Shown here: positions 18,116-22,182 of the stretch, in pieces
Position numbering within the stretch: position 1 is the stretch's first letter
How the letters are laid out: each line of letters starts with the position of its first letter
Source: Sphingomonas sp. URHD0057
Lineage (GTDB): Bacteria; Pseudomonadota; Alphaproteobacteria; Sphingomonadales; Sphingomonadaceae
Length of the DNA: 64,000 nt
NCBI RefSeq assembly: GCF_000620665.1
Contig: NZ_JIAU01000005.1
Location: forward strand, 177,501-241,500
Direction of reading: 5' to 3'
Notes under the pieces: model-generated
Told to the model about the DNA's origin: nothing
The model's input: only the letters and a program-made list of their open reading frames with translations
Databases searched by the model: none
Made by a program: the position numbers and the translations under genes

Positions 18116-18919
18116 CTATAACGCCAGCAACCGCTCCCGAGTCAAAGTCATCACATCGGTTATGGTCCCCTCGAGCGACTCCGATACCAGGTAGCGCGGC
18201 TGAAAGGCGTCGTGCTTGTAGGGCGTGTCGACCGCTTGCTCGACCGAGAAGGGCACCCGCTCGACCGCCTCGCTCTCCAGGCTGAAATGAGCCTCGCCGA
18301 AGCTCGAAGCGAGCCCCGCACCGAGGATTTTCAGCTCGCCTGCTTCCAGTGCCAGCCCGAACTCGACGCTGTGCCAGTAGAGCCGCGCCGCCTTGTGCCC
18401 CTGACCGGCGGCGATCGCTGCGCTGCCGAGCTCGCCGATGTGCCGGGTCATGTCGGCATACTCATGGTGCGCGAGCATCGGGATGTGGCCGAACATGTCG
18501 TGGAAGCAGTCCGGCGCCTCGAGGTAATCGAGCTGCTCGCGGGTGCGGATGAAATTGCCGACCGGGAACACTTGGCTGGCCAACATGGCGAAGAAGACGT
18601 CGTCCGGCACCAGCCCCGGCACCGCGACCGTCCGCCACCCGGTCCGCGGCTCGAGGATCGCGTTCAGCCCCTCGACGTCCGGAACGCCCGGGTGCGACAG
18701 GCGCAGCAGGTCGATCCCGTCGAGGAACGGCGACACCACGCGGCTGCCAAGCAGCTCCACCTGCCGCGCGAACAGCAGGTCCCACACCGCATGGTCCTCG
18801 GCGGTGAACGCCTCCCAGTTCTGCGGGACAACGTAGCTCTCCCAATCCTCCCCGAGCTCGCTCGGGGAGGGGGACCGTCCGGAGGACGGTGGAGGGGCCT
18901 TGTCTTCAATGTCGAGCAT
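18116..18919 (-). CDS. phhA: Phenylalanine 4-monooxygenase PhhA
   Basis: Tetrahydrobiopterin-dependent, non-haem iron hydroxylase that converts phenylalanine to tyrosine. The iron ligands are H140 and H145 in CFHDMFGHIPML and E186 in YWHSVEFGL; 267 aa is normal for bacterial enzymes. The first 26 residues include a Pro/Ser-rich stretch encoded by an inserted palindromic repeat (18847-18890), ahead of the conserved WESYVVPQNW. A good ribosome-binding site (aaggac) precedes the ATG. The upstream leader shows a Tyr-codon attenuator, so expression probably responds to charged tRNA(Tyr). Partner genes phhB and hppD lie nearby. Confidence 0.96.
   Translation of the reverse strand: MLDIEDKAPPPSSGRSPSPSELGEDWESYVVPQNWEAFTAEDHAVWDLLFARQVELLGSRVVSPFLDGIDLLRLSHPGVPDVEGLNAILEPRTGWRTVAVPGLVPDDVFFAMLASQVFPVGNFIRTREQLDYLEAPDCFHDMFGHIPMLAHHEYADMTRHIGELGSAAIAAGQGHKAARLYWHSVEFGLALEAGELKILGAGLASSFGEAHFSLESEAVERVPFSVEQAVDTPYKHDAFQPRYLVSESLEGTITDVMTLTRERLLAL
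18847..18890. repeat. Tandem-hairpin palindromic repeat inside the phhA N-terminus
   Basis: Two adjacent perfect hairpins: a 10-bp stem with 4-base loop (18847-18856/18861-18870) and a 7-bp stem with 3-base loop (18874-18880/18884-18890). The layout matches a dispersed intergenic palindrome of sphingomonads (gggg-rich stems). Here it is read in frame as part of phhA, encoding about residues 9-25. Confidence 0.75.
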
Positions 18920-18942
18920 TCTTCGTCCTTCTCGTGAGCAAT

Positions 18943-18973
18943 AAAAAACCCGCCGGGCGGGAGCCGAGCGGGT
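18943..18973 (-). terminator. Intrinsic terminator (attenuator) in the phhA leader
   Basis: On the minus strand ACCCGC (18973-18968) pairs with GCGGGT (18953-18948), extended by CGG/CCG after one bulged base, giving a 9-bp GC-rich stem with a 7-base loop. A run of five further T residues follows at once. It ends 23 bases before the phhA ATG, so it would stop transcription before the gene unless prevented. An 8-bp inverted repeat just upstream (19013-19020 with 18975-18982) makes an additional leader hairpin. Confidence 0.8.
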
Positions 18974-19002
18974 CGAGGTTGGTCGTCTGAGCTATGCGCG
19001 CG

Positions 19003-19062
19003 TCAGCCGGTCCCAACCTCGTCGGGATAGTAATAAACGGCGCTGATCGTGCGGCGGGTCAT
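19003..19062 (-). CDS. Tyr-rich leader peptide upstream of phhA
   Basis: A 19-codon reading frame MTRRTISAVYYYPDEVGTG, ending at a TGA, lies between the presumed promoter and the phhA attenuator. Codons 10-12 are TAT-TAC-TAT, three consecutive tyrosines. Codons 15-17 hold one arm (GAGGTTGG) of an 8-bp hairpin. The stop lies upstream of the terminator. An in-frame ATG 18 bases earlier (19080) would add a further Tyr. This is the classic architecture of ribosome-mediated attenuation, here responding to tyrosine, the product of PhhA. Confidence 0.62.
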   Translation of the reverse strand: MTRRTISAVYYYPDEVGTG

Positions 19063-19097
19063 TGCGCGTCCGTATCTCATTCCAGGCCTGAACGCGC

Positions 19098-19127
19098 AAT
19101 GTCTGCTTTCGACCCATTGCGGACATC
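19098..19127. repeat. Dispersed palindromic repeat, copy A
   Basis: A 30-bp imperfect palindrome with arms TGTCTGC and GCGGACA around a TTTCGACCCATT core. Two related copies (19906-19937 and 20336-20365) bound the two small genes that follow. It lies between the phhA leader and the divergent gene at 19165. Confidence 0.75.
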
Positions 19128-19905: not shown

Positions 19906-19937
19906 GCGTCCGCTTTCCACCCATTGCAGACATTAGG
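19906..19937. repeat. Dispersed palindromic repeat, copy B
   Basis: Second copy of the TGTCYGC...GCRGACA palindrome, with core CCGCTTTCCACCCATTGCAG. It lies between the stop of the 19165 gene and the start of the next, on the same orientation as copies A and C. Confidence 0.75.
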
Positions 19938-19961: not shown

Positions 19962-20336
19962 ATGCCCCGAACGTTCTTGGTCCTAGCCGCAATCGCCTTC
20001 GTCACCGGCAGACCCGCTTACGCCGCTAATGGCACGGTCCAAAAGGCGAGATTGATTGGGGTTTGGACCCTAGACGGCGGTTCATGTGAAGGGGACACCG
20101 CTGCGATCTACAGAGCTGATGGAACTTACGGGACGTCGGAGACAGAGGGGCGGTGGACGCTTCGCGGGAACCGGCTCTTTACAACGGTTGAAACGCAAGG
20201 GGAGGCTGGCGACACGCCAAGAGCCGTCCGACCAGTGCAGAGGAACATTGTTACTTTGGTGCGCGTGACACGCACAATCCGACTAGAGAGGTGGCGGGAC
20301 GGGTCGCTCCATACGTCTCGTCGATGCGCCACGTGA
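19962..20336 (+). CDS. Small secreted hypothetical protein
   Basis: A 124-aa exported protein. The ATG at 19962 gives a signal peptide ending PAYA before ANGTVQ. The mature part looks like a short beta-rich domain with WTLDGGSCEGD, YRADGTYGTSETEGRWTL and a C-terminal Cys, similar in pattern to small lipocalin-like or DUF domains that read WxL...YxxDGTY...GxW. A pair of cysteines could form a disulfide. No family was named with confidence. Repeat copy C starts exactly at its stop codon. Confidence 0.65.
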   Translation: MPRTFLVLAAIAFVTGRPAYAANGTVQKARLIGVWTLDGGSCEGDTAAIYRADGTYGTSETEGRWTLRGNRLFTTVETQGEAGDTPRAVRPVQRNIVTLVRVTRTIRLERWRDGSLHTSRRCAT

Positions 20337-20365
20337 TGTCCGCTTTCCACCCAAAGCAGCCATTA
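20336..20365. repeat. Dispersed palindromic repeat, copy C
   Basis: Third, more degenerate copy (core CCGCTTTCCACCCAAAGCAG), beginning at the last base of the preceding gene's TGA. With copies A and B it gives the order repeat-gene-repeat-gene-repeat. Confidence 0.7.
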
Positions 20366-20890: not shown

Positions 20891-21093
20891 CGCGATTCTC
20901 CTGTCCTACAAGCCCTGCGTGCGATTATGCCGGCGCCAATGACCCGCTTCCAGCTTCACCCGAAAGCGCCGCCCGCAGCCGCCCTTTCGCGCGCGCCACA
21001 CGCGCGCACGCGTGGGACCGCTGCGTTTGCTGCGTTTCGGATCGCTTGAAAAGCTGGGACGCGAAGCGCAACTGGCGCGCGAAGGAGAATAGA

Positions 21094-22178
21094 ATGGCCA
21101 CGCAAGTCGCCGACGAGAATACCGTCACCGGGTTTGCCAACCCGATGGGCACCGACGGCTTCGAGTTCGTCGAATATACCGCGCCGGACATCGAGCTGTT
21201 GCGCTCGCTGTTCACCCGGATGGGCTTCCCCGAGGTCGCGCGGCACAAGAGCAAGAACGTCACGCTGCACAAGCAGGCGGACTGCAATTTCATCATCAAC
21301 GCCGAGCCCGGCTCCTACGCCGAGGATTACGCCAAGGCGCACGGGCCGAGCGCCTGCGCGATGGCGTTCCGGGTCAAGGACGCCAGGGCCGCGCACGAGC
21401 GGGCGCTCAAGCTCGGCGCCACCAACATCGAAGTGAGCAAGGGCGACGGCGAGCTCGATATTCCGGCGATCGAGGGCATCGGCGGCTCGCGGCTGTTCTT
21501 CGTCGACCGCTACGGCGACAATTCGATCTACGAGGTCGACTTCGACTTCCACCCCGACTGGCAGCAGCGGATGGCGGACGCCGACTCCAAGCTCACCTAC
21601 ATCGACCACCTCACTCACAACGTGAACCGCGGGCGGATGAGCGTCTGGGCCGACTTCTACGAGCGGCTCTTCAACTTCCGCGAGATCCGCTACTTCGACA
21701 TCGAGGGCAAATCGACCGGTCTGTTCTCCAAGGCGATGACCAGCCCGTGCGGCAAGATCCGCATTCCGTTGAACGAGAGCCAGGACGACAAGAGCCAGAT
21801 CGAGGAGTTCCTGCGCGAGTACAAAGGCGAGGGCATCCAGCACATCGCGCTCGGGACCTCGAACATCTACGACAGCGTCGACATCATCCGCGCCCGGGGC
21901 ATTCCGTTCCAGGACACGCCCGACACCTATTACGAGCTGCTGCCCGAGCGCATCCAAGGCCATGACGAGAGCATCCCCGAGCTCGAGAAGCGGCAAATCC
22001 TGATGGACGGCGCGCCGACCGAGGGTCAGGGACTGCTGCTGCAGATCTTCACCCAGAACGTGATCGGCCCGATCTTCTTCGAGATCATCGAGCGCAAGGG
22101 CAACGAAGGCTTCGGCGAAGGCAATTTCAAGGCCTTGTTCGAGAGCATCGAGCTCGATCAGATGCGCAGGGGCGTGCT

Positions 22179-22182
<4 letters not shown>
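21094..22182 (+). CDS. hppD: 4-hydroxyphenylpyruvate dioxygenase
   Basis: Fe(II) alpha-keto-acid dioxygenase that turns 4-hydroxyphenylpyruvate into homogentisate in tyrosine catabolism. About 362 aa with two VOC repeats. Metal ligands are His in LTYIDHLTHNVNRG (about 180) and EGIQHIALGT (about 260), and Glu in the C-terminal FFEIIERKG. The ATG at 21094 follows the strong site GAAGGAG; an upstream in-frame start is unlikely. The stop overlaps the presumed CTG start of the thiolase gene. It works downstream of PhhA/PhhB and a Tyr aminotransferase. Confidence 0.97.

Follow-up and report, generated by a model that had tools for sequence, protein, structure and literature searches.

A putative tyrosine-codon attenuator upstream of the phenylalanine hydroxylase gene in sphingomonads

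Amino acid attenuators are a textbook mechanism, and the ribosome that stalls on the leader frame of such a system reaches about 15 nt from the first base of the codon at which it is held. Attenuators of the trp type (trpL, pheL and hisL of Escherichia coli; trpL of Sinorhizobium meliloti) combine a short reading frame, codons for the amino acid produced, a terminator and an alternative helix, and the leader described here is like them in each of these respects. In S. meliloti, the trpL transcript starts at the leader ATG itself (PMC7298713, in excerpt). Two described leaders of aromatic amino acid synthesis come closest in subject. The aroR leader of aroF in Corynebacterium glutamicum likewise carries a Tyr codon, in the run Phe-Tyr-Phe; it responds to phenylalanine, while tyrosine availability was reported to have no effect (PMC11802643, in excerpt), and it differs from the present leader in both gene and phylum. 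The uORFC-13-1 motif upstream of aroF in Acholeplasma is likewise a predicted upstream frame with a terminator, but it has Phe codons and belongs to another gene in another phylum (PMC8632094, in excerpt). Phenylalanine hydroxylase is also regulated by PhhR or Lrp/AsnC, but there the regulators are proteins and the setting is catabolic; the role of Lrp/AsnC at phhA is a suggestion from gene order (PMC1173090, in excerpt).

We analysed a stretch of 64,000 nucleotides from Sphingomonas sp. URHD0057 (the window, to which all coordinates refer). Comparison of its phhA upstream sequence with those of relatives makes it very likely, in our judgement, that the phhA leader is a ribosome-mediated transcription attenuator reading charged tRNA(Tyr).

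The phhA leader and its distribution

The phhA gene (18116..18919, minus strand) encodes a phenylalanine 4-hydroxylase of 267 aa (PF00351, Biopterin_H, E = 4.1e-40) and is preceded on the same strand by the hexamer GAAGGA (18926..18931), its likely ribosome-binding site. A flavin reductase-like gene and serS follow downstream on the same strand. On the opposite strand, 2 kb upstream of phhA, lies the gene for 4-hydroxyphenylpyruvate dioxygenase (21046-22182), a gene of tyrosine breakdown beside one of tyrosine synthesis.

Between them, on the minus strand, a reading frame of 19 codons, MTRRTISAVYYYPDEVGTG followed by TGA, occupies 19003..19062 (ATG at 19062-19060, TGA at 19005-19003). It has counterparts at the same place in relatives and is predicted to be a short translated frame. 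Three adjacent Tyr codons, TAT TAC TAT, stand at 19027..19035. The leader of 19 codons with its three adjacent Tyr codons, as first described in the initial annotation, is thus present in the window sequence, and the Tyr run is conserved. Searches with the PhhA protein covered 100 relatives, named genomes and 298 genomes of the family. A count that did not select for Tyr was made on the 62 phhA loci of the window's genus minus L199, where tblastn gave no phhA piece though a leader is listed there, leaving 61. From the genus, 56 leader frames were chosen by spacing alone, with no Tyr criterion; at least two Tyr codons fell within the last 16 codons in 52 of these, and Tyr made up 142 residues, or 15.8% of those scored. 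The remaining four leaders (L189, L192, L200 and L201) have one Tyr each in those 16 codons and keep the terminator, a pattern of either decay or an altered signal.

A larger collection of 69 distinct leaders, for which both Tyr and a terminator were required, served solely to examine RNA geometry and the choice of codons. The last Tyr codon lies 7-8 codons before the stop in 62 of the 69 (range 5-10). Their Tyr codons are 164 TAT and 28 TAC, as against 20 TAT and 29 TAC in seven neighbouring genes of the window (Fisher p = 1e-9), a comparison that is indicative only, the leaders being drawn from many genomes and the reference genes from one.

An intrinsic terminator, identified by pattern match on the minus strand (18943..18973), follows the frame. 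Its GC-rich hairpin spans 18973-18949, with 5' arm CCCGCTCGG (18972-18964) and 3' arm CCGGCGGG (18956-18949), and its T-run consists of six T at 18948-18943, 23 bases from the phhA ATG (18919). A GC-rich terminator whose T-run ends at that distance had been proposed beforehand; it is there, and it is conserved, since a pattern search within 200 nt upstream of phhA found a terminator at 56 of the 61 genus loci. Five loci lacked a match. Of these, L193 fits a laxer T-run pattern and L197 has an interrupted T-run, both behind a Tyr frame; L203-L205 (both copies in G007 and the second copy in G010) have neither leader nor terminator before phhA. The leaderless phhA genes at L203 (G010) and L204 (G007) lie downstream of, and co-oriented with, a frame that we take to resemble the end of a shikimate dehydrogenase. 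Terminator-like sites as such are not in excess in the 5-kb region (2 vs 3.1 expected). Under a lax threshold on 18900-19120, the only Rfam match was a sub-threshold one to the Burkholderia sRNA family BcKCsr2, at 18942-19047 (19.8 bits against a cut-off of 40), probably driven by the terminator.

Upstream of the frame on the minus strand, a -35-like block, TTGCGCGTTCA, occupies 19089..19099. A block of the form T..N2-3[GA]TTCA or TTGAC was found 15-50 nt upstream of the leader ATG in 56 of the 69 leaders, a count given without a chance level, and in 48 of these 56 the block begins 35-39 nt ahead of that ATG; it would act as a promoter. A -10-like element, GATACG (19071..19076, minus strand), lies 8 nt ahead of the ATG; it was recognised on visual inspection of the upstream sequences, and GATA-like hexamers (GATAAG, GATAGG, CATAGG, etc.) stand about 8 nt before the ATG in many relatives (by eye, uncounted). 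The near-constant distance of the promoter-like block and the GATA-like hexamer points to a transcript start at, or immediately beside, the leader ATG, i.e. to a leaderless transcript. A 28-base near-repeat, ATGTCCGCAATGGGTCGAAAGCAGACAT with variants, occurs three times on the minus strand (19099-19126, 19906-19933 and 20336-20363; at most 3 mismatches, mean of 0 in shuffles), and one of its copies directly adjoins the -35-like block.

A Tyr-rich frame followed by a terminator precedes phhA at nearly all loci of the window's genus, and the leader is also found in named records of Sphingosinicella, Allosphingosinicella, Sphingomonas parva and Sphingorhabdus soli. Leaders of the cultured species Sphingomonas hankyongi, S. 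sediminicola and S. alba are among those compared. It was present at none of 18 phhA loci in other genomes of the family (L119-L126, L128-L137) and at none of seven named alphaproteobacterial phhA loci (L062-L068). In other families of the order, 18 phhA loci were matched: 11 of them (L206-L216) lacked the leader too, one ended at a contig end and six fell outside the comparison. Stray Tyr-containing frames were few among the loci without a leader, and none was spaced before a terminator. A covariance model (R1) applied to the 298 family genomes gave 11 matches above 50 bits, all of them before phhA and in three genera (g1, g71 and g80), and the next 14 matches (L149-L162, at most 41 bits) had no Tyr run in the candidate frames listed. 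The leader is confined to related genera. Because a true leader, that of G035, scored only 27.6 bits with R1, and because the weaker matches lie mostly outside those listed, a second Tyr-controlled gene beyond phhA may exist.

The alternative helix

In the window, the last codons of the leader frame can pair with the segment just before the terminator. The 5' arm of this alternative, putatively antiterminating helix, CGAGGTTGG, lies within the frame at 19013..19021, and the 3' arm, CCAACCTCG, at 18974..18982, ending 0-1 nt before the terminator stem (both minus strand). The helix has 8 bp (19020-19013 with 18982-18975), or 9 bp when C19021-G18974 is included. The initial annotation had noted an 8-bp hairpin at these positions; it exists, and it proves to be the conserved helix of the family of leaders. 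In a search for the best uninterrupted pairing of the last codons with sequence as far as the terminator, the helix core started 13-17 nt before the stop in 68 of the 69. The window also has outer pairs, CCGA (19025-19022) with TCGG (18967-18964), which reach into the terminator arm; these are replaced by CCAG/CTGG in L016 and L017 and are absent in, for example, L006, L007 and L010.

The pairing is kept despite sequence differences between lineages (CGAGGTTGG/CCAACCTCG, GGAGGCTGG/CCAGCCTCC, GCGGTGG/CCACCGC, GCGATGG/CCATCGC, GGTGGGG/CCCCGCC and CCGGACGGG/CCCGTCCGG). MAFFT columns shifted the 3' arm by one base between subgroups, and covariation was therefore tested by permutation and not by counting pairs in alignment columns. 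Among 27 groups of leader sequences, which are related by descent and are not independent trials, cognate arms paired better than permuted ones (p = 5e-5), the observed mean never being reached in 20,000 trials. Over the same 27 groups, the result was p = 5e-5 without the terminator arm and weaker for the terminator arm alone (p = 0.0037). With an ungapped helix (14 groups) we obtained p = 2e-4, and the cognate arm ranked first, alone or tied, in only 3 of these groups. Base changes on both sides were seen at paired positions (C-G/G-C at -16, A-T/C-G/G-C at -14 and T-A/C-G at -11) in a pair table from the 14-group test, for which the helix register was picked per sequence, so that the table is biased towards pairing.

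Codon choice favours the helix beyond what the peptide requires: synonymous recodings of the five codons formed a weaker helix on average than the native sequence (Wilcoxon p = 1.5e-8, 27 groups), with a median of 9.5% of recodings forming a helix as good as the native one. The peptide ends themselves vary by lineage (PDEVGTG, LDAVETG, ARAGPI) and the helix is nevertheless kept. Comparison of the phhA upstream regions of relatives, the kind of check proposed at the outset, has returned a conserved short frame with a Tyr run, a conserved terminator and a covarying helix.

The position of the helix relative to the terminator differs between lineages. In 43 of the 69 leaders the 3' arm of the helix ends within the terminator arm; in 24 it stops 0-3 nt short of that arm, and in 2 the gap is wider. 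The window and its near relatives belong to the 24, with a helix core that abuts the terminator without overlap. A helix that overlaps the terminator arm would provide a simple switch with the sign needed for product feedback. Exclusion of the terminator by the helix would rest on overlap in the 43 and on abutment in the 24, and folding calculations show no switch. With a ribosome masking the first Tyr codon, equilibrium (Boltzmann) folding gave a terminator probability of 1.00 in the window and of at least 0.82 in all 45 scored leaders (one of 46 was unscored), and moving the mask to the third Tyr position brought the minimum to 0.70. That equilibrium folding fails to reproduce the switch counts against attenuation. 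When the whole leader was folded from the ATG with partners within 34 nt only, the terminator probability dropped to 0.33 in the window and to at most 0.63 in L019, L034 and L040. Taken alone, the 143-nt leader is no more stable when folded than shuffled versions of it (z -0.72); such single-sequence measures are unremarkable, and the significance comes from conservation.

The 2:3 helix of a four-segment trp-type attenuator, which would join the post-stop segment to the terminator 5' arm, was looked for and not found: its mean energy is -5.1 kcal/mol compared with -6.5 kcal/mol when shuffled (mean z +0.60; z < -2 in 1 of 69 leaders). The leader codons, by comparison, pair better than their shuffles do (mean z -1.74; z < -2 in 26 of 69).

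Tyrosine supply in leader-carrying genomes

Only three of the 61 genomes from the window's genus (G004, G007 and, in two pieces, G010) have a TyrA (PF02153) match above the cut-off; four more have partial sub-threshold matches. In the same list, 29 of 39 genomes of other families had TyrA over the cut-off, as did 263 of the 298 family genomes, a sample that includes six of the window's genus. With TyrA in just 3 of 61 genomes, PhhA is probably the only source of tyrosine in most of the genus. PhhA has been described as the main tyrosine route in Dyella japonica on the strength of fitness data (PMC7311316, in excerpt). No phhA match was obtained in 4 of the 61 genus genomes (G016, G023, G033 and G040).

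The leaderless phhA loci of the genus (two in G007 and the second copy in G010) are all in genomes with TyrA matches, and in G010 a TyrA match lies near the leaderless phhA. TyrA and the leader are both present in G004, and the first phhA of G010 (L009) has a leader. Loss of TyrA does not require the leader, which was found at 0 of 21 examined phhA loci from the family (L218-L237 and L130), 20 of them in genomes lacking a TyrA match over the cut-off and one in a genome where that match is split (G378). The family genomes with no TyrA match number 33, of which 20 were named directly and 13 were obtained by elimination from the list of positives. Two genomes of genus g80 at 99% completeness, G152 and G227, have neither phhA nor a TyrA match (G227 by elimination) and are likely tyrosine auxotrophs.

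The window genome gave no match for prephenate dehydratase, chorismate synthase, 3-dehydroquinate synthase or TyrA; it has TrpA. Chorismate synthase is missing from 19 of the 61 genus genomes, including the single-contig genomes G015, G022, G030 and G039, and from 16 of the 18 genomes with the closest phhA (L001-L018, identity at least 73%); other leader-carrying members of the genus keep it. The genome of the window thus appears to belong to a shikimate-less clade of sphingomonads, in which PhhA would make tyrosine from imported phenylalanine. A leader that senses tyrosine shortage argues, from sequence alone, for an anabolic role of phhA here.

Attenuation, its rivals and the known leaders

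The sequence of events that we propose is as follows. Transcription would begin at or near the leader ATG, with a ribosome trailing RNA polymerase. When charged tRNA(Tyr) is ample, the ribosome would reach the stop and cover the codons just upstream of it, the terminator would form and phhA would be off. When charged tRNA(Tyr) is scarce, the ribosome would stall on the Tyr run, freeing codons that lie roughly 15-23 nt beyond the first Tyr to pair inside the terminator 5' arm or in contact with it. The geometry of the window suits such a scheme: its helix arm starts 15 nt past the first base of the Tyr run, roughly as far as a ribosome held on the first of these codons extends, so that a stall would leave the arm free and a ribosome at the stop would cover it. 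Once formed, the helix would hinder the terminator, phhA would be transcribed and tyrosine would be made from phenylalanine; low charged tRNA(Tyr) would thus turn phhA on. In the window's lineage, where the two helices abut, contact between them at the RNA exit channel might be what hinders the terminator. The initial annotation had already put forward a Tyr-codon attenuator giving product feedback. Its central idea is upheld by the Tyr codons, the terminator, the covarying helix and the rarity of TyrA; the antiterminator that it proposed is not.

That antiterminator was a pairing of GGGACCG (19014-19008) with CGGCTCCC (18966-18959), and attenuation switched by this particular helix is very improbable. 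It can be drawn in the window sequence with one bulge. Across the leaders, however, it is not conserved: pairing of at least 4 bp between the codons and the terminator loop is reached in just 18 of 69, a figure given without a chance level, and the loop varies in the alignments; we have rejected it as the switching helix. Another reading dispenses with the switch and has a fixed terminator making a short stable RNA, or a trans-acting leader peptide, like rnTrpL/peTrpL of Sinorhizobium, the RNA mattering more than the Tyr codons. The transcript may start at its own ATG, which has been reported for trpL of S. meliloti (PMC7298713, in excerpt), and at four genus loci the RNA outlasts the Tyr run. 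Retention of the RNA in some lineages after decay of the Tyr run, as in the four one-Tyr leaders, counts against attenuation. Yet 52 of 56 leaders have at least two Tyr codons near the end, and the peptide end varies while the helix is kept, so that this end is not a conserved product. We regard a trans role in place of attenuation as improbable, though it can coexist with attenuation.

A chance frame before an ordinary terminator, with no tyrosine regulation, would account for the ordinary single-sequence folding and terminator counts, but the fact that Tyr codons, a terminator and a covarying helix are all kept across the genus and its relatives makes it extremely improbable. The chance of a T-box or a ligand-binding riboswitch is close to negligible: either would share the position and the logic, with the gene off at ample product, but no Rfam family reached its gathering score in the window, the T-box covariance model gave no match at E up to 1 on 18900-19120, and what is conserved is a frame containing Tyr codons.

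Attenuation by charged tRNA(Tyr) can be extended to an evolutionary picture that we offer tentatively, as doubtful in its entirety. In this picture, the attenuator reads Tyr only, and its antiterminator has slid along the leader as lineages diverged: it overlaps the terminator arm fully in the Sphingosinicella type and merely touches it in the window's lineage, where it would have to act by steric abutment at the exit channel. It would control a hydroxylase usually called catabolic that serves as the sole tyrosine source where TyrA and, in the window's clade, chorismate synthase too have been lost. Leaders with different helix registers form a natural series on the overlap needed between antiterminator and terminator.

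The initial annotation knew of no described Tyr-attenuated phhA, and we likewise found none in the open-access literature, among the matches listed; nor did we find there an attenuator that reads Tyr alone or one that controls phenylalanine hydroxylase. A survey of premature terminators does not mention phenylalanine, tyrosine, phhA or any Sphingo- word in its main text (PMC2965389). Unlike the trp-type attenuators, the phhA leader has Tyr as its regulatory codons, and only three RNA segments are visible in it. The 5' arm of its alternative helix is formed by codons downstream of the regulatory run, unlike the layout of regions I-IV (PMC1183508, in excerpt). The mechanism is thus of a known kind, and the gene, the amino acid and the helix layout are, apparently and to us, new.
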